A DNA stretch of 38,871 bases. Source: Halohasta salina. GTDB taxonomy: Archaea; Halobacteriota; Halobacteria; Halobacteriales; Haloferacaceae. The position numbers and the translations under genes are program-made. Where the stretch lies: NCBI RefSeq assembly GCF_024178165.1, contig NZ_JAMZIE010000011.1, positions 1-38,871 on the forward strand, given 5' to 3'. Shown here one piece after another: positions 8,697 to 30,264 of this stretch. The notes under the pieces are model-generated. The model was not told where the DNA came from. It saw nothing but the letters and a program-made list of their open reading frames with translations, and did no database searches. Each line of letters begins with the position of its first letter. Within the stretch, counting starts at the first letter, position 1.

Positions 8697-9135
8697 CGTC
8701 TACTCTAGGTGTGTACACGAATAGACGTTGTTGACTATTTTCCTGAAGGTCAGTATTTGGGTACCACTAGTTTCGTCCGAAAACGAATCATTTGGCAGTC
8801 TTCGTGCAGCCCCGTGGCTAATCGGCCACCAGACCTAATCACAGATCGCTTCTTGAGTAGGGTGTTCCCCTATCTTGGCGACAGTGGATCGTGAGGTAAG
8901 AGTGATCGACTTCGAATGTCGCAATTGCCGAGTGGAGCTTCTAGACGACGTGTCTGCCGACTGAATCGGTGTGCTTGCACTCAACGAGGATTGTCTTGCT
9001 ATAGGAGTATTCTACAGCTCTACATAAGAGCGCGACATGTTAACCAACAGTTTAGAATTAAATACGCCCTCTGTTGGTTAAGATAGCTCCAACCGACGAC
9101 GAATATTTCGCGGTCCCTCACTTCTATAGGTGGAG
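8697..9135. other. Gene-free stretch with one paired inverted repeat
   Basis: 439 nt without a convincing gene. A very short frame starting at GTG near 8901 encodes a CRNC knuckle (IDFECRNCRVELLDD) but stops after about 20 residues and may be debris of a small zinc protein. The only structured element is the paired inverted repeat at 9040-9081, listed separately. Confidence 0.5.
9040..9081. repeat. Paired inverted repeat, copy a
   Basis: TTAACCAACAG (9040-9050) and CTGTTGGTTAA (9071-9081) are perfect 11-nt inverted arms separated by 20 nt (A/T-rich, TTAGAATTAAAT inside). The same 10-nt arms with 20-22 nt spacing recur at 12715, 13171 and 30225. Confidence 0.85.
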
Positions 9136-9456
9136 CTAAGAATCCGACATATGTTTATCAATGAACTCCACCTCCGAGTCACAGTCGTATTCGTCACGAC
9201 GTGTGATGTAGCCGCCAAATTTGTATCGTCGCCAGCATTTCTGGCCGTTTATAAAGACTGGGTTGGGGTAATGGCCGATGCTCGCCGTAGGCGGGTACGA
9301 TCCCGGTTCATTGCCCTTTTCAGCTACCGCTCGCATCTCGCAATCTTCACAGACGAGATTGGTATACCTCGAAGCGAAGTCGGGATCCTTCCATTTGAAT
9401 GGCTCATCACAGATCGCACACACCTCCTGTGGTTCTCCACGAGGATATTCGACCAT
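9136..9456 (-). CDS. Small zinc-binding hypothetical protein
   Basis: 106 residues. Two Cys pairs, CAIC (13-16) and CEDC (about 36-39), 20 residues apart, make a treble-clef or zinc-ribbon-like knuckle. The C-terminal half (ASIGHYPNPVFINGQKCWRR, then YKFGGYITRRDEYDCD) has no family I know. Composition and the ATG at 9456 look real. It sits just left of an IS6 element that begins 100 nt upstream, so its native promoter region may have been altered. Function unknown. Confidence 0.65.
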   Translation of the reverse strand: MVEYPRGEPQEVCAICDEPFKWKDPDFASRYTNLVCEDCEMRAVAEKGNEPGSYPPTASIGHYPNPVFINGQKCWRRYKFGGYITRRDEYDCDSEVEFIDKHMSDS

Positions 9457-9557
9457 ATTTTTGAGACTGTATTAGCGCTTAGCTGTGAGCAGTCGAGACC
9501 GGTTGTTTGCTCAGACGTCGTTTTAGCAACTTGGTTTTTCGATATGAATGGTATGAC

Positions 9558-10299
9558 GGTACTGTCTAGTTAAGCCAGTTTGAGAAGTGAGCAGGTCGTT
9601 GAGTTAATTGGTCAGAATGCTCGCAGACCTGCTCAGCGAGTCGTTGGCGGCGGATTATCAAGAATGTTGGGAGCGTGAGCGGACGGCGACACCCGCCAGG
9701 GTGTTCGCCGTCCAGCTCCACGCGACCGGCTGTTCACTGAGAGAAACAAAAGGGATTCTTCGTCTATTGGGCATTCAACGCTCTCACCAAGTCGTTTGGC
9801 AGTGGGTACATCAGCTAGCTGACAGCGGTCACAACCCGCCTGAGGCGAAGCCGAAGCGGGTTGCGGTTGACGAAACCGCTGTCAAAATCAATGGCGAGTG
9901 GTCTTGGTTGTATGCTGCAATAGACATCGAGACAAAATTGATTCTCGATGTCGAGTTGTTCGGACGACATGGCACCGATCCAGCTGCAGCGTTTCTCCAT
10001 CGACTGACCGAGAAACACGATCTCTCCGAGACCATATTTCTCGTCGATGGCTACGGCTACCAGACTGCCCTTGCCCGATTAGGACTGAGCGGTCGGCTTG
10101 ACTACGTTGAGCGAAACCCCATCGAAAAATGGTTTCACACACTCAAAATGAGGGTTGACCGCTTCCATAATTCGTGGGTGGGCAGTCGGTCAGCCGTCCG
10201 TGAGTGGTTGATACAGTTTGTTCAATACTACAACTTTCACCGACCGCATCAAGCTCTCGATGGACGAACGCCAGTTGAGGAGGTTATCTAGACAGTGCC
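9558..10299 (+). mobile_element. IS6-family insertion sequence, about 742 bp
   Basis: Terminal inverted repeats GGTACTGTCTAG (9558-9569) and CTAGACAGTGCC (10288-10299) match at 11 of 12 positions and bracket one complete transposase gene whose TAG stop lies inside the right repeat. The flanking 8-mers (GGTATGAC left, TAACATCT right) do not match, so no target duplication is visible. That suggests recombination between copies or decay at one side after insertion. Confidence 0.85.
9617..10291 (+). CDS. IS6-family DDE transposase
   Basis: About 224 residues starting MLADLLSESLAADYQE; an in-frame start three codons earlier (9608) is possible. An N-terminal HTH-like region (CSLRETKGILRLLGIQRSH) precedes the DDE core, with Asp in RVAVDETAVK, Asp in IFLVDGYGYQ and Glu in YVERNPIEKWFHTLK. 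The C-terminus YYNFHRPHQALDGRTP is typical of IS6 transposases, which mobilise DNA by replicative cointegrate formation. All catalytic residues are present, so the enzyme looks intact. Confidence 0.9.
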   Translation: MLADLLSESLAADYQECWERERTATPARVFAVQLHATGCSLRETKGILRLLGIQRSHQVVWQWVHQLADSGHNPPEAKPKRVAVDETAVKINGEWSWLYAAIDIETKLILDVELFGRHGTDPAAAFLHRLTEKHDLSETIFLVDGYGYQTALARLGLSGRLDYVERNPIEKWFHTLKMRVDRFHNSWVGSRSAVREWLIQFVQYYNFHRPHQALDGRTPVEEVI

Positions 10300-10313
10300 T
10301 AACATCTTTAGAA

Positions 10314-10934
10314 TCAATCTAATCGATCGAGTTCACCTCGACGTTCCCGTTGCATGACACCGCCAGCGAAGAATCGGAGTTTATCAACGAGTTCCGCCTC
10401 TGTTTCGTAGGTTTCGACCCGCAGATCCCACCGTACTCGTGCTGAACGGATCATCGCGCTTGTGACGTTGTCCTCGTGAACGAATACCAATCGGTCGCCA
10501 TGGGTCTCAGACAGTGCTTCGAGAATACTTCCTGCTTCTTCACCAACGCCAAAGTTGTGCCCGAGAAACGGTAACACGAACGCAGTCGCATTACTACACC
10601 TCGTATATTCGATGCTCTGTGTTGCTGCGTCGACATCGTCAGTATCGACATCAATATCGAGCGCCAAGAACGCATTAATGCCGGGTCTCACTCGGAGCAG
10701 ACCCTGAATTCGCCTCAAGAGAGCCTGTGCGGAATCGATATCATCCTTATTCTGAAACAGGCGACGCAACGGTCCTGGAAGGTCTTCGATGTCGATCTCA
10801 TCGCGCTCCTCCTCACTGAGTACGTAGTTGAGATTGAACGATTTGTATGGCCCCATCAAATAGAATAGAAATCGATCGTAGGTCACCTGACCCAAGCGGT
10901 CGACGATCAGATCGCGTGTGATCTCTACTGACAT
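10314..10934 (-). CDS. DUF7509-like haloarchaeal protein
   Basis: 206 residues from the second of two nearby ATGs (10934; the other is at 10940). The TATA box TTTAAATA centred near 10960 sits 26 nt upstream of 10934, as expected for a leaderless start. The sequence (TYDRFLFYLMGPYKSFNLNY, later AFVLPFLGHNFGVGEEAG and DRLVFVHEDNVTSAMI) resembles a nucleotide-hydrolase-like alpha/beta fold and the haloarchaeal DUF7509 group. It is divergent from a winged-helix gene, a common pairing. Biochemical role unknown. Confidence 0.7.
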   Translation of the reverse strand: MSVEITRDLIVDRLGQVTYDRFLFYLMGPYKSFNLNYVLSEEERDEIDIEDLPGPLRRLFQNKDDIDSAQALLRRIQGLLRVRPGINAFLALDIDVDTDDVDAATQSIEYTRCSNATAFVLPFLGHNFGVGEEAGSILEALSETHGDRLVFVHEDNVTSAMIRSARVRWDLRVETYETEAELVDKLRFFAGGVMQRERRGELDRLD

Positions 10935-11032
10935 ACGCATCTGTACCTACCCAGCCTATTTAAAGAATTGTGTTTTTGGGAATAGTTGGCTTGAGAAAAG
11001 CTAAGAGTCTCTCGCTCGTATCTCAGCATATC

Positions 11033-11446
11033 ATGTCGACGGACGATGTCCAAATGGGCGGTGGTGAGTTCCCAGAGAGCCCCGAGGACCTCTTGCCAGA
11101 CGATAGTATCCTCACTCTTGAGGAGTACTTAGCAATGCATGCTGCTGTCGGCCATCGGACCCGGTACGAGATCCTATATCGACTCGTCCACAGTGGAGAG
11201 ATGAGTCCGAAAGAACTCGAAGAAGCGATCAGTATCGACGACAGCACGCTACACTATCATCTCAACAAGCTCGTCGACGTAGGCCTCGTCGAAAAGCGCC
11301 AGCGAACTGATAAAGGCCAAGATGGACTATACACGTATTACCAAGCCACTGTATTCGGAGAAGTAACACTCTCTGAGGGCGTTGATGAGTTAATCCGCGG
11401 CGAGCAGGAATTCAAAAAAATATACGATAGTTCGACCAGTAGTTAA
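11033..11446 (+). CDS. ArsR-like winged-helix transcriptional regulator
   Basis: 137 residues from the ATG at 11033. The ATG at 10970 would add 21 residues without haloarchaeal character. The core winged helix covers about 35-110: LAMHAAVGHRTRYEILYRLV, MSPKELEEAISIDDSTLHYH, LNKLVDVGLVEKRQRTDKG, then a wing with YTYYQATVFGEV. It is divergent from the DUF7509-like gene and the two probably form a functional pair. The 3' end is followed within 15 nt by a truncated tnpB, marking a recombination junction. Confidence 0.85.
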   Translation: MSTDDVQMGGGEFPESPEDLLPDDSILTLEEYLAMHAAVGHRTRYEILYRLVHSGEMSPKELEEAISIDDSTLHYHLNKLVDVGLVEKRQRTDKGQDGLYTYYQATVFGEVTLSEGVDELIRGEQEFKKIYDSSTSS

Positions 11447-11459
11447 CTCAGATTAGTAT

Positions 11460-12257
11460 GTCTGTGGACACCGAACGTCGTGGGAGTTGCACGTCACCGT
11501 CGAATACTTGGTCGACGAACCGACCAACTCGGACGAATACAATGAGACGTACATCGGCTTCGACGTAGGTGAGAGTGCGTTGATTACGGGCTGTGCCCTC
11601 AAACGCGACGTGCCACGGAAGCTGATGCTCGTCAGTGGCAGTCGAGCGCGACACCTCCGCAAAGAGATGTTCACGACTCTCCGACGGCTACAGAAACGGG
11701 ATGCCGCCGAGTGGCGGATCGACGAGCGATTCGATCACTATCAGGACGCACTCACAGATATTGTCGAAAAGGCGTCTCGGCAGGCTATCGAGTACGCCCG
11801 AGAATTCGACAACCCAGTGATCGTACTGGAAGACCTCTCGTACATCCGTGAACGATTGGATTACGGAAAGTGGATGAACCGTCGACTCCACGCATGGGCC
11901 TTCGCTCGGCTACAGGGTCGAATTGAAGACAAAGCCACCGAAGCGGGGGTTCGAGTAGAGTACGTCAATGCGGCGTACACATCCCAAACCTGTCACGCCT
12001 GCGGTCGCCTCGGTCGACGAGATCAGCAAGCGGAGTTCGTGTGTCCACACGACGACTGCCACGTATCAGAGTTCCAAGCAGATATCAACGCGGCGGTAAA
12101 CATCGCTGGTCGCGTCAACCCGTGGGGTGAGAGCGTCCGTTGGGAACCCGGACACAATGACACGCTTCAGGATGGGAGCGGTTGTGACACCGCCACAGTC
12201 CAGCGTGAGACGAGCGAGAAATCCTCACAGATGACGCTCACAGCATATTCGGACTGA
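11460..12257 (+). pseudogene. tnpB: TnpB, 5'-truncated (RuvC and zinc finger retained)
   Basis: The frame opens after a TAG at 11454 with TSWELHVTVEY, the segment just before the RuvC domain, so the N-terminal region (about 150 residues) is missing. It keeps the three RuvC acids: Asp in YIGFDVGESAL, Glu in VIVLEDLSYIRER, Asp in FQADINAAVNIAGR. It also keeps the zinc finger CHACGRL...CPHDDC. The first usable start would be TTG at 11487. Without its N-terminal RNA- and target-recognition domains it is not expected to be an active nuclease, yet the frame has stayed open. Confidence 0.85.
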
Positions 12258-12322
12258 AACCTGCCTACCGGATTCACCTCGTAGGGGAAGCCCCGGCGTT
12301 CACGCCGGGGAGGATGTCGCCT
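12240..12322 (+). ncRNA. TnpB right-end hairpin (omega-RNA type)
   Basis: Directly after the tnpB stop, CCCCGGCG-TTCA-CGCCGGGG (12291-12310) is a perfect 8-bp hairpin with a tetraloop, followed by AGGATGTC. This is the typical end of haloarchaeal IS200/IS605-type elements. In TnpB systems the 3' end of the gene gives rise to the guide (omega) RNA with the hairpin in its scaffold. Transcription here is inferred. Confidence 0.65.
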
Positions 12323-12651
12323 GTTCGGGAAACTGCATCGACAAGCCCACCGAGAGGCGGAAACCCCGACCCTTTTCGAGGAGATCGTTCATGATACCCG
12401 AGACCACAACCGATGCGGCCTCGTCGACGATCAGGTTCACAACATAGTCGTCTGCGTACTGTGCGAGGTCGCGTTTGCGTTCTTTGAGTGCATCATCGAG
12501 GTTTGTCAGAATCACACCCGTCATGATGCGGGTAGCCTCCCCGCGGAGATCACCGAGGTCGAACAGAAAGGCCGTGTTATCGTCGATCAGATCCCGGAAA
12601 TCGAACCGGTTCTCAGTGTTGTTGAAGATGCGTCGGAGGTGGGTACCACGA
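12313..12651 (-). pseudogene. Fragment of a VirD4/HerA-like conjugation ATPase
   Basis: About 110 residues on the minus strand (NTENRFDFRDLIDDNTAFLF, DLGDLRGEATRIMTGVIL, YVVNLIVDEAASV, GRGFRLSVGLSMQFPEQ) look like the C-terminal core of a TraG/VirD4- or HerA-type DNA-translocation ATPase, with a Walker B-like LIVDEA. Neither Walker A nor a start is present. The 3' side is cut exactly where the tnpB right end begins, and the 5' side is lost near 12651. It marks a former plasmid or conjugative segment. Confidence 0.7.
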
Positions 12652-12675
12652 ATACAGCGGCAAGAAGGGGGGTCG
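12651..12675 (+). repeat. Origin-type repeat, outlying plus-strand copy
   Basis: AATACAGCGGCAAG followed by AAGGGGGGTCG matches the repeats around the orc1/cdc6 origin (TTACAGCGGCAA, 2-3 nt, GGGG). It lies 640 nt beyond the nearest other copy and on the opposite side of cdc6 from the core, at the broken edge of the VirD4-like fragment. Confidence 0.65.
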
Positions 12676-12714
12676 TTTGAGCAGAGTTGGCCGGTGCGAT
12701 GTAACGACATCTGC

Positions 12715-12755
12715 TTAACCAACAAAGCTATGATTTTGAGGATACTGTTGGTTAA
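12715..12755. repeat. Paired inverted repeat, copy b
   Basis: TTAACCAACA (12715-12724) and TGTTGGTTAA (12746-12755), 21 nt apart. It ends 13 nt before the ATG of the small gene at 12769, so it overlaps that gene's expected promoter. Confidence 0.85.
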
Positions 12756-12768
12756 CACGGACGGAGCT

Positions 12769-13092
12769 ATGTCCTATGAGCCACCGAACCCACCAACAGA
12801 TCTCCCCGATAGCGTCGTCGACACGCTCGACGACTACTCACCTGACCTCCTTCGAAACGTTGCTAGCTACGCCGAGGAGTTAGCTGAATACCGCGAGCGC
12901 GAAGCACGTCTCGACGAGAAAGCCAACCAAAGCGAGGTCGAAGAACGACCAGACGATCTCCCAAATGATGTCCCATCGAAGGCGACAATCACAATCAAGG
13001 AAATCAACAGCAACCGCTACTACTACTGGCAGTGGCGAGAAGGAGACCGAGTCAAATCAAAGTACAAAGGACCGGTCAATTCAGATGAATGA
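12769..13092 (+). CDS. Small DUF6788-like protein
   Basis: 107 residues from the ATG at 12769. The N-terminal two thirds form an acidic helical region (DLLRNVASYAEELAEYRERE, predicted coiled coil). The C-terminus TITIKEINSNRYYYWQWREGD, then VKSKYKGPVN, resembles the short beta motif of DUF6788 proteins, which I know as small plasmid- or virus-linked haloarchaeal proteins of unknown role. Its flanks are unusual: the paired inverted repeat occurs on both sides (12715-12755 and 13171-13212), so gene and repeats form a unit of about 500 nt. Confidence 0.65.
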   Translation: MSYEPPNPPTDLPDSVVDTLDDYSPDLLRNVASYAEELAEYREREARLDEKANQSEVEERPDDLPNDVPSKATITIKEINSNRYYYWQWREGDRVKSKYKGPVNSDE

Positions 13093-13170
13093 AATCCTCG
13101 ACGAAACAAAGCCAACACAAATATTTGCTCTGTAGTATCAGTGCGGTCAGTCGTGTCGAGGCACTGTATC

Positions 13171-13212
13171 TTAACCAACTCATAGCCACAATTGAACCGC
13201 AATGTTGGTTAA
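13171..13212. repeat. Paired inverted repeat, copy c
   Basis: TTAACCAACT (13171-13180) and TGTTGGTTAA (13203-13212), 22 nt apart, with one mismatch in the arms. It lies between the convergent small gene and orc1/cdc6. Confidence 0.8.
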
Positions 13213-13290
13213 GACAATCTGGCAGAAGCTCTATTTTCTACGCCAAATCTAACAATCGTCGACAATAAAACGCTAGAATACCTGAATCGA

Positions 13291-13311
13291 CACCCCACGT
13301 TGCCGCTGTAA
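13291..13311 (-). repeat. Origin-type repeat downstream of cdc6
   Basis: On the minus strand it reads TTACAGCGGCAACGTGGGG, nearly identical to the copies at 14700-14722 and 15003-15028. It sits 9 nt beyond the stop of orc1/cdc6, with its G-run pointing away from the origin core. Confidence 0.8.
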
Positions 13312-13319
13312 GAGTTCGG

Positions 13320-14516
13320 TCAAGCCGAGTTACAGGCTTTGATAACCAGTTCTGCGTCATCCACGAGTTGGTTTACCGTGTGAGCACCTCTCCCACGGCC
13401 TCTCCCTTTGTGCTGTTGGTTAATCACCGATAGGAACTCGAGTTCAGACAACAGATCTCGGACGCGGCGATTTTTGAGTGGACTGGTATTCTCTTGATCG
13501 CACATGATCTCATAGAGTGAGTAGATGTCCTCGGTGGGGATTTCTGGATCGTCCTCGTCGTGTTGTTGGACCTGCAACGCCAGAGCCTTCAACAGGTGTT
13601 TTGAGTGGGTCGGCAATTTCGAGATCAACTCCGAGAGACGGTTTCGTTCCTCTCGTTCATGGGCTTCGTCGACATGAACCTCTGAGACGACCTCACTATC
13701 TCGTTCGTAGGCTGCCTCACCGGCATACCGCAAAATATCGATCGCCTTCCGGGCATCCCCGTGTTCTCTCGCAGCGAGAGCTGCGATCTTCGGGATGACC
13801 TCGTCATCAAGTACCCCTTCGTGGAAGGCATCACTCCGCGATCGCAAAATCTCGCGAAGTTGATTCGCATCGTACGGTGCAAAGACGAGATCCCGTTCGG
13901 AGAGACTCGATCGAACACGCTCGTTCAGTGAGTCTTTGTATCGGATTTTGTTGCTGATGCCGATGATGCCAAGAGTACTGTCGGTGAGTTTCCCCGACTC
14001 GGTAGCCCTAGAGAGCTGCATGAGGATGTTGTCGTTGTCGAGTTTGTCGATTTCGTCGAGAATCACCAATCCGACATCGTACTGAGCATCGAGAATGTCC
14101 CACAATCGACGGTAGTAATTCGACGTACTCAGCCCGGACATCGGAACAGACACGTCAGTCTCAGCAGGTACGTTGAGTGAATCAGCGACCGATCGGACAG
14201 CCTGTGTCTCGGTTGAGTCCTGAAAACAGTCGACGTAGGCGACGCCGACCGAGACATCGTTTTCTTTCGCTGACTCCATCAAATCGTTCGTTATGAATTT
14301 AGTACAGAGTGATTTTCCAGTACCAGTCTTCCCGTAAATCAAGACGTTATTCGGTGTCTGACCGTAGGTGGCGTCTTTGATCGCGTTTGCGAGTTTGGTG
14401 AGCTCGTCTGTGCGACCGATGATTCGGTCTTTCTTCGGAAGGTGTTGAACACGGAGCAGGTCCTTGTTGGCAAAGATGGGGTCGGGACTGCCAAAAAAGG
14501 AACTCGACTCGGACAT
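13320..14516 (-). CDS. orc1/cdc6: Orc1/Cdc6 replication initiator
   Basis: 398 residues, full length for archaeal Orc1/Cdc6. Walker A GKTGTGKS (62-69), Walker B VILDEIDKLD (151-160), sensor 1 LGIIGISNKI, sensor 2 HGDARKAIDILRYAGEAA, then a C-terminal winged helix from about 305 (HSKHLLKALALQ, later YSLYEIMC). It binds origin repeats as an AAA+ initiator and helps load MCM. Repeats of one type lie on both sides of the gene and through the intergenic region upstream, so it almost certainly recognises this origin. One repeat abuts its promoter, suggesting autoregulation. Confidence 0.95.
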   Translation of the reverse strand: MSESSSFFGSPDPIFANKDLLRVQHLPKKDRIIGRTDELTKLANAIKDATYGQTPNNVLIYGKTGTGKSLCTKFITNDLMESAKENDVSVGVAYVDCFQDSTETQAVRSVADSLNVPAETDVSVPMSGLSTSNYYRRLWDILDAQYDVGLVILDEIDKLDNDNILMQLSRATESGKLTDSTLGIIGISNKIRYKDSLNERVRSSLSERDLVFAPYDANQLREILRSRSDAFHEGVLDDEVIPKIAALAAREHGDARKAIDILRYAGEAAYERDSEVVSEVHVDEAHEREERNRLSELISKLPTHSKHLLKALALQVQQHDEDDPEIPTEDIYSLYEIMCDQENTSPLKNRRVRDLLSELEFLSVINQQHKGRGRGRGAHTVNQLVDDAELVIKACNSA

Positions 14517-14573
14517 ATGCAGGTTATTCTCGTAGATGGTTATTAATCTATCCCACCCAATTGCCGCTGTAAA
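14517..14573 (-). promoter_or_regulatory. cdc6 promoter with adjacent origin repeat
   Basis: On the minus strand a TATA-like ATTAATAACC (about 14540-14550) lies 25-33 nt before the ATG at 14516, compatible with a leaderless mRNA. An origin-type repeat (14552-14573; TTACAGCGGCAATTGGG on the minus strand) directly borders the TATA/BRE side, so initiator binding there would block transcription. Confidence 0.6.
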
Positions 14574-14722
14574 ACATTCGCGATACCTAACAACCCCTCA
14601 CAAACGGGCGGTAGGAGATTCAAAATCGCTGATCTAGGAACCACCGATTGACCCAATCACCCGACGTTGCCGCTGTAACGGTCTATAGCCACCTACACAC
14701 ACCCCCCACGTTGCCGCTGTAA
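14552..14722 (-). repeat. Left cluster of origin-type repeats (three copies)
   Basis: Three minus-oriented copies at 14552-14573, 14658-14678 and 14700-14722, sharing TTACAGCGGCAA and a G-run. Their TTACAG halves face the A/T-rich core to the right. The middle and right copies both continue as TGTAACGGTC towards the core. Confidence 0.85.
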
Positions 14723-14865
14723 CGGTCGACTGTATGGGGGAGTCTATCCATTGGATACTCTCTATCGATAGCGCCGTACAGCCTGTATTCACGGGATTGG
14801 GCACCATAGTAGTACAGTAGCGCCTCCTTGTGTTCGAGTCTTCACAGCCAAAACGAGTTTGGCTG

Positions 14866-14928
14866 TTCAGTACGTCAAAATTGTGGTACGGTAGCAAAGG
14901 ACATAGTAATATATAAAACCACTAGATT
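14866..14928. other. A/T-rich core, probable duplex-unwinding element
   Basis: ACGTCAAAATTGTGG and then ATAGTAATATATAAAACC form the most A/T-rich stretch of the region, midway between oppositely oriented repeat clusters. That position is where DNA melting would be expected. The TATATAAAA could alternatively be a promoter firing rightwards, but no gene follows. Confidence 0.6.
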
Positions 14929-15002
14929 GGGAGACGACTAGCCACAACTCCGGTTTCCAGCATCGGGCCTAGTATACCGCTGTTGGCCCGAGTCCTGTGG
15001 AG

Positions 15003-15130
15003 TTTACAGCGGCAACGTGGGGGGTGTGCGTCTGAGCGGGAAGCGTCCAACCGATGGGACCTCTGTGTCCACTCCTGAGTCAAGCCCACCGTCACTCAAC
15101 TTCAGTTACAGCGGCACTGAGGGGTGGGTG
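15003..15130 (+). repeat. Right origin-type repeats, proximal pair
   Basis: Copies at 15003-15028 (TTTACAGCGGCAACGTGGGG, then GGTGTG) and 15106-15130 (TTACAGCGGCACTGAGGGG, then TGGGTG). The first is the mirror image of the left copy at 14700-14722, over more than 20 nt. Confidence 0.85.
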
Positions 15131-15390
15131 GTGTACTGACGGGGCACCTGATCGAGAGCCCCTCTACGACCGTGTATCCTCATTGGCCCGCGTATTTCTC
15201 TGTCATCGACTACGACGGCTTCCTCACGAAGACTTGGTCAAATCTCGCTCGACGTCTCATCTCGATCGACGTCTCTGTTCTACGGAGGCAGCGACGGCAT
15301 AGTCTTTCATGAATAGCGATGTCGCAATTCCGAGACAACTCGTCTTCAGCTATTCCTACATGTTCGGTCAATATCATCCATACAAGATTG

Positions 15391-15526
15391 TTTTACAGCG
15401 GCAACGAGGGGTGTCTGATGCACAGCCGTCAAGAGATGGATCTCTCCCGAGCCAGTATCGAGTTTACAGCGGCAATAAGGGGTGTCGGTGGGGACGTCAC
15501 TCTTACAGCGGCACTGAGGGGTGTCT
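15391..15526 (+). repeat. Right origin-type repeats, distal triplet
   Basis: Copies at 15391-15416, 15463-15488 and 15502-15526, each TTACAGCGGCA(A/C), two or three variable bases, AGGGGTGTC. Spacings are 72 and 39 nt. Confidence 0.85.
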
Positions 15527-15629
15527 CTGGGGCGACGTTATAGAGTAGGAATCGGTCGGAACGGAGCGGATTCCGTCCTGTCCTTCGGAGGTGGCCTGTC
15601 CACCCACGAAACGAGGCAATATCCGAAAC

Positions 15630-15920
15630 AGCAGTCAGTGAACACACATGCTAGAAGCGTGTGTCTGTGTTGACTGCTCACAGCGACTCAGAAAGATACC
15701 CCCGACTCTGCCGACGCCTGCTGGCATCCCCGTGGTCAAAACAACACCGGGATGCCGTACACGGTCGAGGATAGGGGTAACGGCCACTTGGCATGGCCAG
15801 CAATCCACTAGTCCGATGCTGTGGGACTACCCGTGCCCGAAAGGTCTGGTAGTCAGTTGCTTGGAAAACCTGAAACTCCCACCGCTCGGGATTCCTCCCG
15901 CCTTCAGGCGGAGGAGGATG
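15630..15920 (+). mobile_element. Decayed IS200/IS605-type 3' end
   Basis: No open frame of note, but the stretch ends in a hairpin with arms CCTCCCGCC (15894-15902) and GGCGGAGG (15907-15914), loop TTCA, followed by AGGATGTCAA. This is the same terminal signature as the tnpB right end at 12291-12318 (AGGATGTC). It was probably inserted into the origin's right arm between the repeats at 15526 and 15923. Protein remnants upstream of the hairpin are too decayed for me to identify. Confidence 0.5.
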
Positions 15921-15922
15921 TC

Positions 15923-15948
15923 AATACAGCGGCAATCAGGGGCGTCTA
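15923..15948 (+). repeat. Origin-type repeat, most distal right copy
   Basis: AATACAGCGGCAATCAGGGG then CGTCTAC. It begins right after the IS-type right-end hairpin, so the IS relic may have split it from the other right-arm copies. The AATACAG start is shared with the outlier at 12651. Confidence 0.75.
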
Positions 15949-16017
15949 CTCGGTATGTGTATCTACGTGGATACTGATCACCGGCTGATTCATACCCCTA
16001 ACTCACCACCCAGCAGT

Positions 16018-16773
16018 ATGGGACGAGTTCGTCTGTTTGCCCTTGTCGGTGTTCTTGTGATCTCGGTTCTGGCCGGCTGTAGCGGGAGCCCTACGCTGGA
16101 TCCTGCATCCCCAGCTACCGATGTCAGTGACACCCGGACCGTCACTGTCACTCGTGTGATCGACGGTGACACCATGGCAATCGAGTATCCCAACGGCACT
16201 GATGACACCGTCCGCCTGCTAGGCGTCGACACGCCAGAAACGACGCTGTCTCGTGTTTCACCCGCTGAATTCGAAGGGGTACCTGACACCACTGGCGGTC
16301 GTGATCACTTATTTGACTGGGGCGAACGCGCCACTGCTCTCGCCGTCACTGAATTGGAGGGCCGCCACGTCGAGATCGCGGTCGACCCAGCGTCCGACCG
16401 CCGCGGCTACTTCGGCCGGTTGTTGGTATACATCTACGTCGACGGCGAGAATTTCAATGAACGGCTGTTGGCCGACGGCTACGCTCGGACGTATGATAGT
16501 CAGTTTAGTTTCCGTGAGCAGTTTCGCGGGACCGAACAGCAGGCCCAAGATGACAACGTAGGGGTGTGGAGCTACGAGCAATCCGCACCTGACTCAGCAA
16601 GCCATGTGTCGACGACCGACGACGATGTTCCCCCACCGCCTCCAGATGGCGATTATGACTGTTCGACGTTCGAGACACAAGGGCAAGCACAACACGTCTA
16701 CGAGGAGACTACCGGAGATCCGCATCGGTTGGATCAAGACGGCGATGGGATCGCGTGTGAGTCGTTACCGTGA
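16018..16773 (+). CDS. Thermonuclease-like lipoprotein with excalibur domain
   Basis: 251 residues from the ATG at 16018. An upstream ATG at 15955 would place 21 residues before a normal signal sequence and is rejected. The signal [20 protein letters not shown] ends in the lipobox LAGC (Cys21), so the protein is anchored outside the cell. Then come an SNase-like domain ([39 protein letters not shown]), a Pro/acidic linker, and a C-terminal excalibur calcium-binding motif (DCSTF ... [12 protein letters not shown]). It is likely an extracellular Ca-dependent nuclease, perhaps for DNA scavenging. Confidence 0.9.
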
Positions 16774-22616: not shown

Positions 22617-22639
22617 GCCTCGGGGTCAAGCCCCGAGGC
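22617..22639 (-). ncRNA. TnpB 3'-end hairpin (relic)
   Basis: GCCTCGGGG (22617-22625), loop TCAAG, CCCCGAGGC (22631-22639): a perfect 9-bp stem spanning the stop region of the decayed tnpB on the minus strand. A near copy occurs at 38612-38634. It is the omega-RNA-type end of an IS200/IS605 element and sits directly upstream of the subtilase promoter. Confidence 0.6.
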
Positions 22640-23125
22640 TTTCGCGTGGACTCACGTTCTCACTGCTGAAAGCGATAGGCGAATATTCTCGCTTCACATT
22701 TGATATTCCGCGATTCAAGCGCACATCTGCGGGTACGCTTCCGTCGTTTGCGTTTTACTGACGATATCGGTTCTGCAAACCGATGTTCTTCGAAGCGTCG
22801 TGGTTAGCGTGGTTCTCATACCTGCACTTAACAGAACACTTCACCAGACCGACCGTCGCTATCGGTACACCCACACGCCGAACCCGTTTGGACGTATTCC
22901 GAGGGTCACCCTACACGACTTCGACGCCATGCTCCTCTGTCCTGTATTCGACATCCTTGTAGAGGTGTCGGAACGCCCAGACGTGTTGCCACGTCGACCT
23001 TGAGATGTTCTCCCGAATCTGGATCGAGTCTTCGAACACGATGTGCGAGCAGTCGTTTCGACGGTCTCTTCAATGAATTTCGAACTCTACATCCGTGTCG
23101 ACGTAGTCCGGAACTACTACCCGAG
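22626..23125 (-). pseudogene. Decayed tnpB, C-terminal half
   Basis: On the minus strand, pieces of TnpB can be read in order: HIVFEDSIQIRENISRSTWQ, VWAFRHLYKDVEYRTEEHG, a stop, then RNTSKRV, and after a frame change GLVKCSVKCRYENHANHDAS, KNIGLQNRYRQ, stop, and a tail ending AFSSENVSPRESLGA before TGA at 22626-22628. The RuvC Glu (FED) region, one half of the zinc finger and the last acidic motif (now NHD) are recognisable. At least two internal stops and one shift rule out function. No N-terminal half is present. Confidence 0.8.
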
Positions 23126-23168
23126 ATCCGACTAGTGAACAGTACGCCAATCAGGTCGCCTGAGAATC

Positions 23169-24125
23169 TTACTTGAACAGATCCTTGCGTTCGGACTCCG
23201 AGAGTCTAACATCCGGGTGTGCGTGGGCCGAACACTCTTCGCACTCGTAGGAGCCGCTGCCGGCTTCGAACTGGTAAATCGGATAGCCGAAGAGGAAAAA
23301 CGCATCCTCTTGGTGGCGTTCGATGACCGCGTCGGCGGTCGCGCCACAGCCCGGACAGTAGTCCTCGTCCATCGCCGGGACCTGGTAGGTGATCTTCTTC
23401 CGGCCCATGAACGCCTCTCTGTAGGCTGCGCTCTGTGATGTCTTGATGAGGTCCTCGACGGGGAAGTCGTCGACACTCACCGTGTTGTCGTGGCCGGGTT
23501 CGGTAGCGACGGTGACGTCGGTGTAGGCGCTTACTTCGACGGTGTTGTTCGACCCGACGAGGTGGAGCCGAATGCTGCCGTGGCCGTCGACCCGGATGTC
23601 GTTGTTCCACCCGGTCAGATAGAGTTCGAACTCCGCTTCGGTGTTTTCGATCCGAACCGAGTTCCGCCCGCCGGTGACCGACACTCCGGTGTCGGGCTCG
23701 GTGACGCTCACTTCGCGATCCCAGCCGGTTATACTCTCGTCGTACTGGTTCCGCGGGTGTGGTTCGGTGTCACTTTCGTCGTGGAACCGCTGTTCGTCGC
23801 CGATGATCTGGAGATCGCCATCGACCGCTTCGTGTTCGATAAATACGTCTTCGGCGTCGACAACGACGACGTCGCCGCTGACTCCGCCCGATTCGAGATA
23901 GCCGTCCTCGATCGTGCCGCTGATCTCGGTCTCGATGTCGCCGATCTCGGCGGTCCCGCCGGCCGGCGTGTTGGTGTAGACGTATTCGGCGTTCAGCACC
24001 TTTAGATCGCCGTCGACGGCCCCGGACTTGACGTGGACGTTTTCGGGGTCGACGAGTTTGACTGGTGGCTGTTCGTCACCGTTGAGCGTAATATCGCCGG
24101 AGTAGGTTGTCGAAGGGGAACTCAT
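23169..24125 (-). CDS. Bactofilin-like beta-solenoid protein with C-terminal zinc ribbon
   Basis: 318 residues from the ATG at 24125; a TATA-like CTAAATA 26-32 nt upstream supports it over the ATG at 24134. Residues 1-110 repeat a V-x-GAVDGDLKV / GGVSGDVVVVDAEDVFI pattern like bactofilin-type right-handed solenoids. Residues 130-225 continue with GGRNSVRI, LTGWNNDIRV, GSNNTVEV, DNTVSVD turns (DUF3060-like). Residues 255-305 hold CPGCG and CEECS, a zinc ribbon. No signal or TM segment, so cytosolic. It is last in a five-gene minus-strand cluster. Function unknown; a scaffold or membrane-associated polymer is possible. Confidence 0.7.
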   Translation of the reverse strand: MSSPSTTYSGDITLNGDEQPPVKLVDPENVHVKSGAVDGDLKVLNAEYVYTNTPAGGTAEIGDIETEISGTIEDGYLESGGVSGDVVVVDAEDVFIEHEAVDGDLQIIGDEQRFHDESDTEPHPRNQYDESITGWDREVSVTEPDTGVSVTGGRNSVRIENTEAEFELYLTGWNNDIRVDGHGSIRLHLVGSNNTVEVSAYTDVTVATEPGHDNTVSVDDFPVEDLIKTSQSAAYREAFMGRKKITYQVPAMDEDYCPGCGATADAVIERHQEDAFFLFGYPIYQFEAGSGSYECEECSAHAHPDVRLSESERKDLFK

Positions 24126-24186
24126 TGGTATCAACTAACTGTGAGTCGTGTATTTAGTCATGAGTGGTGTGTTTTTGATCGTGATA

Positions 24187-26358
24187 TTAGATTTCGCTGC
24201 GTTTGATCAGGGCATAGAGGAACAGCCCCGCGAGGATCACGTTCATGTAGACGAGGAACGCGGAGACGAGTCTGGCAGCGGGGCCGATCGGCCCGATGTT
24301 GCCGTAGCCGATCGTGAGGAACGTGATATACGAGAAATACAGGTTCAACCCGAGTGTCTGGAGCCCATCGAACGTGGCGATTTCGGTGAGGGCGATCTGT
24401 CCGGCCCCGGTTTCGAACGGCGAGCCGCCGACCGCAAACAGGAGGCCGGCAAACAGCGGAAACAGGATGAAGACAGTCGTGATCCGGTAGAGCCGCAACC
24501 CGTAGCCACAGGAGATCCCAAGAAACAGGTTCTCGATGCCTCGGAGCGCATTCCGCCCCCGTGTCAGCAGAGCTTCGCTCGAATCGGCGGCGATCTCGAA
24601 GAACTTCCGGCGGGCGTGCTGTTGGCGTTTGACGCGGAACTCGCCGGCAGCCTTTACGTTGCTCTGAGCCGAGGCGCTGTTTTTCGCCTTGAGGTACGTC
24701 TTTTCGATGACGTCGGGTGTCATCTCGACGGTAAACTCGTAGGGACAGCTCCCGTCGTCGAAGCTGTGGAGGTTCCAGTCGTTGCGGTCTAGATAACCGG
24801 TGTGGTCCGAGAAGGTGAACTCGTCGAAGGTCGTATCGCAGAACCGCACGTAGTCGAGGAGTTCCCGTTCGTCGGCCGGGTTCTCCGCGGTCAGTTCGAC
24901 ATCGCCGACCGTCGACCGTGTCAGATCGAACCGAACCCAGCCGTCTTCGGGTTGGACGACACGCCCCTCGGCGATGGTCGCCTCGGTGAAATCGAGATAC
25001 GTATCATCACCGAACGACTGGGCTTTCAATCGAAGCGAGTCGGTGAACTCCGCGTCAGTAAAGTCCGCGCTCTCTTTGAACGCGACCTCGGTGATGTCCG
25101 CCGCGGTACAGACGATATCGCTGAAGTCGACAGCACCGACAAACGTCGCGTTCCGGAAGACGGCATCGTCTTCTAAATGGTTGGTTCCACCGTTGAATAT
25201 CGCACCACGGAAGGTCGTCGGACCGCCGAAGACGGCGTTCGTGAACACGGCATCGCCGTCGAAGATCACTTCATCGAAATCGGCTTTCCCACCGAAACGG
25301 ACGGTTTCGAACGTCACGTCGTCGGTGAACTCACACCGCTCGAAGACCACGTCGTCGACGAATTCGGCGTCGCTGAAGTTCGAATAGCCGAACCGTCCCC
25401 GTTCGAAGGTCACGTGATCGCCGAACTCCGCAGCGGCGAACGACACGTCGTCTTCGAGTAGTGCCGTCCCGCCGCGACACTCGACACCGCGGAAGGTTGC
25501 TCCCTCAGCGAAACGCGTGTCGTCGAACAACACGTCCTCTGCGAAAGTGACCTCGTCGAAGTCAGCAGTCGCGGTGAACTCGCTGCCGGTGAACACGACC
25601 GTCCCTGCGGCTTCGACCTTCTCGAAGACGGCCTCGCCGTCGAAGCGGACGTCCCTGAACTCGATGTACTCGAAGGTGGCGTACAGAAACGAAACATCGC
25701 CGTCGAAGACGGCCCCCGAGAACGTCGTGTTGTCACCAGTCTCGTTGGATCGGCCATAGAACTGCGTCCCCTCGAAGCTCGCTTCGGCCTCGAAGACTGC
25801 GTCGGTGAAGCTCACGTCGTTGTCGAAGACGACCTCGTCGAAGATCGCTTGCTGGCTGAAGGTGGCTTCGGTAAACTCGGTGTCGTCGCCCGTAACCGTC
25901 GCCTCGAAGCAGTCGACCGTGTCGGTAAAGCGGGTGTCCGTACAGAGCACGCCGTTTTCGAAATCACAGTTGTCGGCCAGCAGTCCGCCGACGGTGCTGT
26001 GCCGCAGGTCGAGTTGTTCTTCGAACCGCCCGTGAAGGACGGAGATTCCGCCGGGAATCGTCGTATGCCGGAGGTCGACCGGGTGTTGGTCGTCGCTTTC
26101 GATGTCGACGTAGTCGAGATCCAACTCGGGGAAGTGGGCCCCGATAAACGCCCGCGTGGCGTCGGTGTCGTCTTTGAGTTTCCGGACGAGAGACGCGGTG
26201 AGATCGGCCGCCGAAATGTCGGCGGCCTCGCGCTCGTCGGGGGCCATGTGGAACGGGCAGTAGTCACTCGATGCGTGTGACTCGTGTGGACACGACCAGC
26301 GGCGTTCGATCGACGTCGAGTCGTGTGCTGCGGGATCGAACTCGTAGGCACAGGTCAT
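24187..26358 (-). CDS. Pentapeptide-repeat protein fused to a two-TM K+-type channel
   Basis: 723 residues. N-terminal CPHES...CPFH is a possible zinc site (22-38). About residues 90-500 are pentapeptide-type repeats (A/V-x-F-x-x, for example VTFERGRFGYSNFSDAEF), a quadrilateral beta-helix. A basic helical linker follows, then TM1 (about 624-645), a pore helix and selectivity filter TIGYGN (682-687), and TM2 (about 697-718), an Ion_trans_2 channel module. The repeats lie on the cytosolic side and may gate the pore or dock partners. The stop-to-start gap to the upstream DUF2617-like gene is 47 nt. Confidence 0.9.
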   Translation of the reverse strand: MTCAYEFDPAAHDSTSIERRWSCPHESHASSDYCPFHMAPDEREAADISAADLTASLVRKLKDDTDATRAFIGAHFPELDLDYVDIESDDQHPVDLRHTTIPGGISVLHGRFEEQLDLRHSTVGGLLADNCDFENGVLCTDTRFTDTVDCFEATVTGDDTEFTEATFSQQAIFDEVVFDNDVSFTDAVFEAEASFEGTQFYGRSNETGDNTTFSGAVFDGDVSFLYATFEYIEFRDVRFDGEAVFEKVEAAGTVVFTGSEFTATADFDEVTFAEDVLFDDTRFAEGATFRGVECRGGTALLEDDVSFAAAEFGDHVTFERGRFGYSNFSDAEFVDDVVFERCEFTDDVTFETVRFGGKADFDEVIFDGDAVFTNAVFGGPTTFRGAIFNGGTNHLEDDAVFRNATFVGAVDFSDIVCTAADITEVAFKESADFTDAEFTDSLRLKAQSFGDDTYLDFTEATIAEGRVVQPEDGWVRFDLTRSTVGDVELTAENPADERELLDYVRFCDTTFDEFTFSDHTGYLDRNDWNLHSFDDGSCPYEFTVEMTPDVIEKTYLKAKNSASAQSNVKAAGEFRVKRQQHARRKFFEIAADSSEALLTRGRNALRGIENLFLGISCGYGLRLYRITTVFILFPLFAGLLFAVGGSPFETGAGQIALTEIATFDGLQTLGLNLYFSYITFLTIGYGNIGPIGPAARLVSAFLVYMNVILAGLFLYALIKRSEI

Positions 26359-26405
26359 GGGTATCTCGACCCGATTGGTGGATTGGTAGACATGATGGAT
26401 TGTAG

Positions 26406-27014
26406 TTATTTCAGTTTCGTATTTGGAGTTTCGTATGTAGGTTCGCCACCGACAGGAGCTGCCGGGAGGTCGGTGAATTCGTGTTCTGAATACAGCGCCA
26501 GATCGTACTCCGGGTAGGTGTGGTAGGTCTCGTAGTTGGTGGTCGACTGGCAGTTGATCGTCGTATAGGCCTGCGGATCGAATCGGTAGGCGATGTCGAA
26601 CGGTTCGGGACCCGGAAACGCCGACAGCGGCTCTCGGCTGATCGTCGTCGTTACGCCGATCGATCCGAACCGGTAGCGGCCGGTGTGTATCTCCTGTCGA
26701 TCACGGCCAGCGGGCTCGGTCGACCGGCGGTCCGTGATTGGTCGGCCAGCGGACTCGGTCGACCGGCGGTCCGTGACTGGTCGATGCGTGTCTGTCAGCG
26801 GAACTGTCGTCACACGCCCCTCTCGGATCGGTTTGCACGACAACAGTTCGTGAAAGCCGAGTTCCGGCGCGCCGATGTAGTGTGAGTCGCCGATCACGGC
26901 GAAAGTGAACTCGGTCCCGAAGAACTGCCGCTGTACCCGCCGCTTGATATCGTATTCGGCGAGCGGTGGTTGCTCGGCCGTGTATGCGAGGTAAAGGGAT
27001 TCGGGTGGACTCAT
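26406..27014 (-). CDS. DUF2617-like protein
   Basis: 202 residues. SLYLAYTAEQPPLAEYDI, FTFAVIGDSHYIGAPELGFH, ELLSC, FDIAYRFDPQAYTTINC and YETYHTYPEYDLALY resemble the DUF2617 family, cytosolic proteins of unknown activity. The ATG overlaps the stop of the upstream spermidine-synthase-like gene by 4 nt (ATGA), so translation is coupled. Residues about 78-103 are a tandem duplication (TDRRSTESAGR / TDRRSTEPAGR) that inserts a polar loop into the middle of the protein. Confidence 0.7.
   Translation of the reverse strand: MSPPESLYLAYTAEQPPLAEYDIKRRVQRQFFGTEFTFAVIGDSHYIGAPELGFHELLSCKPIREGRVTTVPLTDTHRPVTDRRSTESAGRPITDRRSTEPAGRDRQEIHTGRYRFGSIGVTTTISREPLSAFPGPEPFDIAYRFDPQAYTTINCQSTTNYETYHTYPEYDLALYSEHEFTDLPAAPVGGEPTYETPNTKLK
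26706..26783. repeat. 39-bp tandem duplication inside the DUF2617-like gene
   Basis: Units 26706-26744 and 26745-26783 are adjacent and differ at two positions. The length is divisible by three, so the frame is kept and 13 residues are duplicated. It looks recent. Confidence 0.9.
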
Positions 27015-28810
27015 TGTTTTTCCTTTTTGACCTTGGTTTCGACGATCAGCTCGTAGTTCGGATCGAAGACGCTGTTGGGCTCGACGCCGGCGTACTGCGG
27101 CGTCTCCTTCCAGTCGACCGATGTGTACTGTTCGCTGTGGTCACGAACGTAAGCGGTCCCGTTCGCCGGGGTGATAGTCGACCGGGGTTCGTCGGGGGCG
27201 AGCACGAAGAACCGCTCGCCGAGTTGGTCGGTGCCGTCGACATCGCGGTAGGCGTAGTAGGCCATCCGGTGGTCGAAGCCGGCCTCGCGGACGGTGTTCA
27301 TGTAGGCTTTGTTGTGTGGGCCGTAGGTGTAGCCCGAATACCCCCACGTCACGACCAGTCCCTCCTCCGAGAGCCGATCGGCGAGCATGCTGTAGAACTC
27401 GACGGAGTACAGATGGAGGAGGTCGTCGCTCTTGGCGCCGGGGAGATCCAAGAGGACGAGGTCGTACTCACGGTCAGTCTCCTGCAGATACGTGTAGATG
27501 TCCTGCTGATAAACGGTCAGATTGTCGTACTCGTAGGCGTCATCGTGGTATTCTGCGAGGAACGCGCTGTCTTTGCTCCGATCCATGAACGCCCCATCGA
27601 GGTCGACTTGGTCGACGCTGACGTCGTGGTCCCGGAGGTAGTTCGCCGCGATCCAGTCGCCGCCGCCGACTAGCAACACCTCGGTTTCAGTCGAGTTTTC
27701 GTACATCGTCATCGGGACGTCGACGAGCCCGTGATGATAGGAGTCGACCCAGCTGTCACACAGTTGGATCGCCGAATCCAGCCGCAGACAGGTGTCCGAC
27801 GCGCCGGAAAACAGTCGATTCTCCGATTCGCCGTTCCACGATCGTTCATAACGGACGACCTGCTGGTTGCGGGTCGTATACTGGTCGGCGATCGACGCCG
27901 ACACCGTGTTTTGTGGGTGTTCGTCTTCGATCAGCGACTCCATGTAGTAGCCCGTCAGTTCGTCGTCGACCGCCTGATGCTGGACACTGACGCCCGCGTA
28001 GACGCCGGTCAGCAGCAAACAGGCCACTAGCACCGCCCGGTGTTCACGGCTGGTGATCGCACTATCGTCGGTGCTGGTCCTCTCCAAGCGGTTGCTGATC
28101 GCCCATCGGTCGCTGAACCGTGCCACGAACAGTAGGGCAGCGAGACAGTTCAGGAGTGCGAGTACGAACACCGACGGAATCAATCCGAGTCGTGGGTAGA
28201 GCACGAACACGTAGATGAGTGCCCCGAGGAGCCCACCGAGGTAGTCCATCGCCAACACGGTCGAGTCGGTGTCGTACGCCGTGCTCTCCCGGTCGGTGTG
28301 AAACGCGACCGAGAGCAGCCGGAACGAGCCGTTCTCGACGACCCGCCCGAGTCGGTCGACCCAGCCGGGCGTCGACGTCGAGCCGGCCTCCGACCGGACC
28401 ATCGACAACAACACCGGCAGTTCGAAGCCCGACAGCACGCCGACGACAACGACCGGCAGGCGGGCGGCGACCTGTAAGATCCCGTTCGGGAGGATCTCCG
28501 GGAGTGCGGCGGTGTTCAGCCAGAGCACGAACAGGAAGCCGACCGGCGCAGCGAGTGCCAGATACACCTCCGTCCGGAAGAAGTTCGCGTGCTGGGCGTC
28601 CTCGAAGTGGCGAACGAGAAACGAGCCGACACCGAGCGAGGAGAAAAACAGCCCGATGGTGAGTCCGTACTGTGTGACGGTCCCGCCGTACATCACGGTC
28701 AGCAGTTCCGAGTAGACGAGTTCGTAGGCGAAGCTACAGAGGGCGACGAGACACGCGATCACGTGTAACGTCGCCTGCTTGGAGACGCCCGACAACGTAG
28801 CATTCGACAT
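27011..28810 (-). CDS. Membrane spermidine-synthase-like protein
   Basis: 599 residues: seven predicted TM segments (about 15-35, 48-66, 82-100, 115-137, 187-205, 208-230, 258-276), then a soluble Rossmann-like domain similar to polyamine aminopropyltransferases. Visible are the region LRLDSAIQLCDSWVDSYHHG, GGGD (382-385), VDLD (402-405), LLDLPGA (453-459) and LYSVEFYSMLADRL. The usual DS(T/S)DP catalytic segment is DLPGA here, so classical spermidine synthesis is uncertain. In bacteria such membrane forms often neighbour DUF2617, as here. First large gene of the coupled cluster. Confidence 0.85.
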   Translation of the reverse strand: MSNATLSGVSKQATLHVIACLVALCSFAYELVYSELLTVMYGGTVTQYGLTIGLFFSSLGVGSFLVRHFEDAQHANFFRTEVYLALAAPVGFLFVLWLNTAALPEILPNGILQVAARLPVVVVGVLSGFELPVLLSMVRSEAGSTSTPGWVDRLGRVVENGSFRLLSVAFHTDRESTAYDTDSTVLAMDYLGGLLGALIYVFVLYPRLGLIPSVFVLALLNCLAALLFVARFSDRWAISNRLERTSTDDSAITSREHRAVLVACLLLTGVYAGVSVQHQAVDDELTGYYMESLIEDEHPQNTVSASIADQYTTRNQQVVRYERSWNGESENRLFSGASDTCLRLDSAIQLCDSWVDSYHHGLVDVPMTMYENSTETEVLLVGGGDWIAANYLRDHDVSVDQVDLDGAFMDRSKDSAFLAEYHDDAYEYDNLTVYQQDIYTYLQETDREYDLVLLDLPGAKSDDLLHLYSVEFYSMLADRLSEEGLVVTWGYSGYTYGPHNKAYMNTVREAGFDHRMAYYAYRDVDGTDQLGERFFVLAPDEPRSTITPANGTAYVRDHSEQYTSVDWKETPQYAGVEPNSVFDPNYELIVETKVKKEKQ

Positions 28811-28881
28811 TCTATGAGTGACTGACTGCCTGTCGGTCGACCAGCGCCAGATTCCAGAGGGGCCTCACTCGTCGGGGGCCG

Positions 28882-29652
28882 TCAGATCCGGGGTGAGACT
28901 TTCCATCGTTCGGTGATCTCTTTGCCGTCGACGGTCTGTTCGACACGGAGATCGATACACTCCCAGCCGAGATCGGTGCCTTCGTCGGGGCCCTCGGCGA
29001 CGACGATGTTGGCACCGACCCGATACCAGCCCGGTTGCACATCTCGGACCGAGGTTTCGATCTCCTCGTTGGTCGGGGAGTCGTAGGTGTCGTCCCAGTT
29101 GATCGGTCCGGGACCGGGATCCTGCTCTTCGAAGCGGGCGTTCGAACCGATGTATGCGACTCCGAGGGTGGCGATGTCGACCGGATACTGGGATACTTCG
29201 TCGTCGTGATCGTTGTACCAGCCGTTGGTGTAGGTGCCACCCCAGAACCACGCTCGACCGTTTGCGGTCCGCGGGGCCGAACTGTAGCCGCCGCTCCCGC
29301 GGCCGGTCGCGCCACGACCCTTTGCGGCCCGGGCCCTCCCGACCGGCGAGAGGGCGGTGAGCGCCGACAGGCTCGCCGTCGACTCGGTGTTCGTTCCGTC
29401 TCCGGAGCCGGCCGACCCGTCGGCGTCGAGATCACGCCGGGACTGTACCCAGCGGTCCGACTCGCCGAACGGGTCGATCCTGAGCGTCGACCCGTCGGCC
29501 GAGAGTTCGACATCGTCGATTACGTTCGACTTCCGTGGTGGTGGCTCGTTACTGCTCCCGATACAGCCCGCGAGAGCCGTCAGCCCGCCAGCCGCAACGA
29601 TGCCACTCCGTTTGAGCAGCGTGCGTCGATCGATAGGTTGTGTAGGACTCAT
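28882..29652 (-). CDS. Tat-dependent lipoprotein, family not recognised
   Basis: 256 residues from the ATG at 29652. A start 22 codons upstream would bury the signal. Twin-arginine RRTLLKRSGIVAAGG and lipobox LAGC give a Tat-exported, lipid-anchored protein. A low-complexity Ala/Gly/Arg stretch (GRGATGRGSGGYSS) precedes a beta-rich C-terminal domain (GRAWFWGGTYTNGWYND, GWYRVGANIVVAEGPDEG, ITERWKVSPRI). It is the first gene of the minus-strand cluster; a TATA-like TTTTTAGTA lies at about 29700-29708. In bacterial relatives of this neighbourhood a DUF4247 protein often occurs; I cannot show that this is one. Confidence 0.75.
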   Translation of the reverse strand: MSPTQPIDRRTLLKRSGIVAAGGLTALAGCIGSSNEPPPRKSNVIDDVELSADGSTLRIDPFGESDRWVQSRRDLDADGSAGSGDGTNTESTASLSALTALSPVGRARAAKGRGATGRGSGGYSSAPRTANGRAWFWGGTYTNGWYNDHDDEVSQYPVDIATLGVAYIGSNARFEEQDPGPGPINWDDTYDSPTNEEIETSVRDVQPGWYRVGANIVVAEGPDEGTDLGWECIDLRVEQTVDGKEITERWKVSPRI

Positions 29653-30224
29653 GTGTTCGTCGGTCCGCGTCGTAGGTAGACTGTCATTTTTGCGGAATGG
29701 TACTAAAAACCAACTCACCTGTTACCGATCCTGTGATCCGAGGAGCCGCCGTATCGGATCGGCTCGGTGTCCAACCCGGTCGTCGCAACCGCGTTGCTGG
29801 CGCTCGTCGAGCGGGACGAGATCGACATCGAGCCGACGTCGGCACCTATCTCGATATGCCGGTCGACGACGGGACCGAGCCGCAGAAACGCTCCGAACGC
29901 CGAGACGGATCGGATCCCGCTTCAACTCTCTGCCATGCACACGGGGACAGGTCCATGGCTGCACATGCGGGGGAGCCGTTTTACCGGGCGTGGCCCTCGA
30001 CGACCTGCTCTTGGGGGCCAGCGGGCATGGTCGACAGCCGTTTCAGATAGCTCCTCACGGCTCGCTCGCCGAGGCCCACCCAACCGGCCACGGGGTTGGA
30101 GCACGTACCGAAACGCCGAGTTCTCGTCCTCGGGTTGCGGCCGGCGGGGGCAATGTCTGCGTCGATCTCGGTTGTCTCGCCGCTATCGAGGCCGTCCAGC
30201 ACGTCGACTCCACGGTCACGAACG

Positions 30225-30264
30225 TTAACCAACAGATCCCTGCCCATGCGGCGATGTTGGTTAA
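30225..30264. repeat. Paired inverted repeat, copy d
   Basis: TTAACCAACA (30225-30234) and TGTTGGTTAA (30255-30264), 20 nt apart, both arms perfect. It is 17 kb from the other three copies, with unrelated inner sequence (GATCCCTGCCCATGCGGCGA). Confidence 0.85.

Follow-up and report, generated by a model that had tools for sequence, protein, structure and literature searches.

The paired inverted repeat dispersed over the window (the whole stretch of 38,871 nt of Halohasta salina DNA analysed here) is probably the recognition site of a plasmid-encoded family of putative DNA-binding proteins. This family includes a 107-aa protein encoded in the window itself, which would repress its own gene and bind at many places over the plasmid, and we put the chances of this reading at about three in four. 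By its kind, it would be a plasmid operator-plus-protein system in which the protein family is new and the two-arm site is unusual. The site itself, its spacing, its placement among genes, its co-occurrence with the protein and the changes in its arms were all computed, and it is the covariation of the arm with the protein subfamily that provides the main argument for considering the 107-aa protein as the likely binder. The first-pass annotation had described the repeat but had not linked it to this gene, whose promoter region is the site at 12715. The features involved are listed in Table 1.

Table 1. Location of the two-arm sites and neighboring features in the window (positions in nt).
Feature	Position	Strand	Description
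IS1595-type terminus	9019-9032	+	TCTACATAAGAGCG; 7 nt from the site at 9040
Dispersed site 1	9040-9081		TTAACCAACA-N22-TGTTGGTTAA, exact; IS1595-type terminus adjoining
Site 2	12715-12755		Spacer 21, exact; putative operator of the 107-aa gene, 13 nt from site end to ATG
107-aa protein gene	12769-13092	+	MSYEPPNPP...YYYWQWREGD...; proposed binder of the site
Site 3	13171-13212		Spacer 22; left arm TTAACCAACT, single mismatch at arm position 10
orc1	13320-14516	-	Replication initiator of the Orc1/Cdc6 family; converges on the 107-aa gene, whose family it often accompanies
Site 4	30225-30264		Spacer 20, exact; intergenic, 110 nt past the 3' end of the called gene 30375-30842 (-)

A two-arm site of constrained spacing

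The repeat is real, widespread and specific. Its four copies in the window have the coordinates and the near-perfect arms originally reported, three of them being exact and one carrying a single mismatch, and shuffled sequence gave none. Their contexts differ from one copy to another, as had been noticed; site 3, for example, sits where the 107-aa gene and orc1 converge, between their 3' ends. The spacer of site 2 contains the sequence GCTATG, as do most promoters of the 107-aa family. Within orc1 (window 13366-13423) there are also two arms that have the same orientation and are not paired as a site, an exact one at 13414 and one with two mismatches at 13366.

The spacing was analyzed in plasmid contigs totalling 1.31 Mb (most of them complete plasmids and one of them partial), allowing at most one mismatch per arm and all distances from -5 to 100. 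Inverted arm pairs with spacers of 20, 21, 22, 23 and 24 nt numbered 6, 37, 38, 7 and 1, respectively. Only three inverted pairs had a different distance within the limit of 100, and everted or direct pairs were absent from these contigs. With nearly all inverted pairs at 20-24, the constraint on spacing proposed in the first-pass annotation stood clearly. Each plasmid contig had 2-24 near-identical sites and, allowing up to two mismatches per site, 73 out of 89 were perfect. The commonest variable position was arm position 10 (12 of 19 mismatches), the same one that differs at 13171. The spacers, on the other hand, are in general not conserved between copies and their composition is near background, i.e., the inner sequence is indeed unrelated. 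The possibility of an RNA hairpin was set aside, as the fixed two-helical-turn spacer and the position at promoters would favor recognition as DNA.

The arms are also well above chance. In the source genome (3.04 Mb in 25 contigs), contigs C2, C12 and C25 together carried all six exact copies, and the reversed pattern was absent. Among 292 sampled Halobacteria genomes, exact copies of TTAACCAACA-N20-24-TGTTGGTTAA were present in 191 (up to 30 in each), with the reversed-pattern control giving zero in all genomes listed. We found more than 119 stretches with the site in public genome contigs, nearly all haloarchaeal (the bacterial matches L037 and L075 were excluded as probably unrelated), and 50 in viral contigs (L126-L175). 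Among the papers listed by a literature search with either arm as a string all were unrelated, and no such repeat appears in the haloarchaeal origin paper.

The 107-aa protein and the arm it would recognize

The 107-aa family is the protein family most often adjoining a site, its gene being found beside 31 of 203 sites in a first pass. An autoregulated operator is expected in the promoter region of its own gene, and this was the situation at 47 of 50 canonical loci, where an exact site ends 9-16 nt upstream of the start codon, and for 28 proteins of a variant type. A CTATG-like promoter sequence was located in the spacer at 36 of the 50. The gene lacked an upstream site at three loci, and in two of these (L202 and L092) the end of an IS1595-type element replaces it in the promoter, 6-15 nt upstream of the start codon.

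A full-length gene was detected in over half of the sampled Halobacteria genomes (155 of 292). Sites were present in 154 of these 155 genomes (mean 7.4) against 37 of the 137 without the gene (Fisher p = 2e-45), a co-occurrence that is partly circular because most gene copies bring their own site, although the mean of 7.4 per genome implies that the remaining sites are additional to it. The 37 genomes had 1-7 sites each, and the loci that could be read resemble plasmid relics. Homologues are carried by 200-232 PLSDB plasmids, and the annotated copies among the matches listed are all described as "hypothetical protein." Sequence searches with the 107-aa protein against Pfam, NCBIfam, PADLOC and PDB gave nothing significant, and PHROGs only a weak unnamed match.

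In viral contigs no relative was found using the protein of the window as query, and two when the homologue of phage ChaoS9 was used. This phage carries plasmid-type replication genes and has one site directly upstream of the homologue, gp49, and another at the 3' end of its orc1. The paper describing ChaoS9 terms the homologue "uncharacterized" and makes no mention of an inverted repeat. There are about 50 viral stretches with the site, yet a 107-aa-type protein was found at two viral loci only; viruses may respond to the 107-aa-type protein of a host plasmid. In one viral stretch (L139) the site is located 18 nt upstream of a large ATPase-like gene, possibly a terminase.

A site bound by the protein should also change with it. 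One diverged subfamily, of the C-terminal SWKNEY type, shares about 38% identity with the canonical one. Its 28 proteins have TACCCC-type arms at the same place as the canonical site, nearly all of the GTTACCCCA form; the arm at these loci, given as GTTACCCCAC(A), builds an inverted repeat with geometry similar to the canonical one. At the same place we found CTAACCAAC arms in three diverged homologues, a CTAACCAACA arm in another homologue type, and the single cases TAACCAAG and CTAACCCAC at distant homologues. None of 10 chromosomal paralogues without the C-terminal tail had an inverted repeat there. In 103 of 117 cases, a protein and its nearest protein neighbor had the same type of arm, or both had none. 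Altered arms were predicted to occur elsewhere too, and this was tested: TTACCCCACA pairs were detected in 17 of the 292 genomes, and 15 of these 17 belong to the 25 genomes that have the SWKNEY subfamily (Fisher p = 8e-17; p-values overstate the certainty, since the genomes are not phylogenetically independent). Some copies of TTACCCCACA are tens of kb away from the listed genes (e.g., G239:C1:358292 and G080:C4:183678). Pairs of CTAACCAACA were present in both genomes that have this homologue type, with 6 copies in one and 3 in the other, and were absent from 18 further genomes. Chromosomal paralogues ending in ...ESKTVQ (L335-L346 and others on Halobacteria chromosomes), with no inverted repeat upstream, may no longer recognize DNA.

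At 18 loci (L028:5043-5969 and 17 similar ones) there is a gene for a 308-aa multi-winged-helix protein whose C-terminal domain is HVO_2833. It usually diverges from the 107-aa gene, with which it has the operator region in common, and its product may be a co-regulator. We regard it as quite improbable that the sites are the operators of another regulator such as this one, with the 107-aa gene being merely its main target. All 18 members in the fetched loci are about 83 nt from a site and nearly all diverge from the 107-aa gene, but the protein is missing beside most 107-aa gene copies, including those of the window, of ChaoS9 and of the TTACCCCACA subfamily, and the arm type tracks the subfamily of the 107-aa protein. 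A different regulator following 107-aa-type proteins so closely is possible, but would be a less simple explanation than recognition by the 107-aa protein. The earlier suggestion of an operator of an oligomeric regulator is supported by a site at the promoter of a small-protein family and by an arm that changes with the protein.

Placement of the dispersed sites

The position of the sites relative to genes, called with a simple in-house caller, was counted on the same plasmid contigs. None of the 89 sites was inside a gene, when 68 would be expected, and for the 75 sites that are not at the 107-aa gene, the probability of finding zero intragenic is about 1e-47. Excluding the 107-aa gene, the dispersed sites were in tandem, divergent and convergent gaps 48, 16 and 10 times (40, 21 and 13 expected), i.e., promoter bias is absent, so that ordinary transcription control of the neighbors does not follow from the placement. 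These counts uphold the original remark that a single promoter role does not suffice for the copies. There was a marked excess of sites at 0-20 nt from stop codons (27 vs. 4.5 expected), and at some of them the TAA of the arm itself is the stop codon. At some genes (DUF6610) the site is upstream, directly before a TATA-like box, but at others this was not so.

Recombinase sites and ends of tiny mobile units had also been put forward, and we consider it highly unlikely that the sites are used in site-specific recombination or delimit small mobile cassettes. The abutment to stop codons, and the two sites that flank the 107-aa gene of the window, would be expected in such a case. However, the unrelated spacers of variable length (20-24) leave no shared crossover core of the Xer/pdif, loxP or attC kinds, and there was no excess of breakpoints at the sites, with conserved gene adjacency of 0.36-0.41 across them vs. 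0.29-0.51 across other long intergenic gaps. The conserved interior expected of MITE or IS ends was not found between site copies, and the mobile elements present here have different ends of their own. The arms do not match the R-box consensus of integron-like attC sites either.

One such element, of the IS1595 type, uses the site as a target. It is about 1,044 bp long, with ends CGCTCTTATGT...ACATAAGAGCG, and has 138-bp derivatives; insertions of the element or its derivatives are those at window 9019-9040 and in L420, L421, L410 and L429. We sampled 42 flanks of IS1595-type ends independently of the sites, and in 12 of them a complete site was located exactly 7 or 8 nt off the end (chance about 4e-37), with no complete sites at other distances within 30 nt in these 42 flanks. 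Some insertions show 8-bp duplications (ATTCTTCT in L421 and AGACGGAC in L420), and in the source genome the three IS1595-type ends found all abut sites. An intact transposase gene was not recognised in the body of the element in the window. The element seems to choose these sites for insertion, which suggests nucleoprotein complexes that are occupied in cells. No account of an IS1595-type preference for such targets was found in the literature searched.

Sites away from the 107-aa gene are nearer to this gene and orc1 than random intergenic positions (median 15.7 vs. 28.6 kb, P = 0.001), and an Orc1/Cdc6 gene is found within 1.4 kb of the 107-aa gene at 44 of 69 canonical loci. Clustering toward ParA was not detected on the plasmid contigs (P = 0.57); on the plasmids examined, distances of tens of kb mostly separate ParA from the 107-aa gene, which has no adjacent parA. 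We view as doubtful, if worth considering, that the protein and its site form a segregation (centromere-like) or copy-number system, in which the sites would hold plasmid copies together or apart and autoregulation would be the usual feedback. Such a system would have sites like these, which are near-perfect, found on plasmids or their relics only, placed between genes with no preference for promoters, and more closely set around the gene and orc1. Against it, besides the lack of clustering toward ParA, the 107-aa protein has no match to a ParB-type domain in Pfam, NCBIfam or PHROGs, and the same arm is common to up to eight gene copies per genome and three per plasmid. Several gene copies with one arm type in a cell are hard to square with an incompatibility specificity determinant. 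Of the partition site suggested in the first-pass annotation, what holds is the restriction to plasmids, the near-perfect arms and the clustering toward the gene and orc1, and what speaks against it is the lack of clustering near ParA and the coexistence in one cell of several gene copies with the same operator. The clustering toward the gene and orc1, together with the gp49 and orc1 sites of ChaoS9, suits a KorB-type protein that regulates or organises the plasmid as a whole.

Proposed mechanism and related systems

An AlphaFold2 model built from 27 homologues (pLDDT 77, pTM 0.44) predicts two helices in the 107-aa protein (14-21 and 25-55), followed by an acidic linker that is disordered and by a sheet with strands at 73-79, 82-91 and 94-100. 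The predicted C-terminal three-strand meander is rich in Tyr, Trp, Arg and Lys and may resemble three-stranded beta-sheet DNA-binding domains such as AP2 and the N-terminal arms of the lambda and Tn916 integrases; searches with Foldseek and VIA-align gave no significant fold match. We do not take the lack of a match as a new fold, and the DNA-binding role rests on covariation rather than on fold.

We infer direct binding as follows. The N-terminal helical hairpin would dimerise and, through the flexible acidic linker, present the C-terminal beta-sheets, each of which would read one 10-bp arm. The arm centers are 30-34 bp apart, i.e., three helical turns and on the same face of the DNA, so that one dimer or a pair of dimers could grip both arms and ignore the spacer. 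As the site covers the promoter of the 107-aa gene, binding would repress that gene. On the rest of the plasmid the same protein would occupy sites at a density of about one per 10-15 kb, only in intergenic positions, often just past a stop codon and more densely near the orc1/107-aa module. There it would most likely act as a KorB-like plasmid-wide regulator, or as a punctuation or organising factor, this being the least certain step.

The KorB/O_B system of the IncP plasmid RK2, which works with KorA, has distal and promoter-linked operators and serves both gene regulation and segregation (PMC11790492, PMC5577506). Like it, the 107-aa system is plasmid-encoded and has distal as well as promoter-linked sites, with binding being putative here. 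KorB differs from the 107-aa protein in having a CTP-binding N-terminal domain of ParB. The operators differ as well, O_B being one compact palindrome and the 107-aa site two 10-bp arms 20-24 bp apart. By analogy, the 107-aa protein could be functionally KorB-like and unrelated to ParB. With ParB/parS and other plasmid centromere-binding systems it shares several near-perfect inverted repeats concentrated toward the replication region and a small, putatively autoregulated protein. It differs from ParB/parS in the absence of a ParB domain and of an adjacent parA, and in sites that are spread round the plasmid instead of at one locus.

More tentatively, and at somewhat less than even odds, this may be a new haloarchaeal plasmid-wide nucleoprotein system: a new family of small beta-sheet proteins coupled to Orc1 modules that marks gene boundaries via a rigid two-arm site, with at least three mutually distinct specificities, and that provides IS1595-type elements with a safe insertion address. 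The 107-aa family is found in about 200 haloarchaeal plasmids, yet no Pfam or NCBIfam family covers it. With the protein and its exact recognition code, it would become testable how control or organisation is achieved in archaeal megaplasmids, and the arm/protein pairs would be ready orthogonal operator-regulator pairs for halophile genetics.
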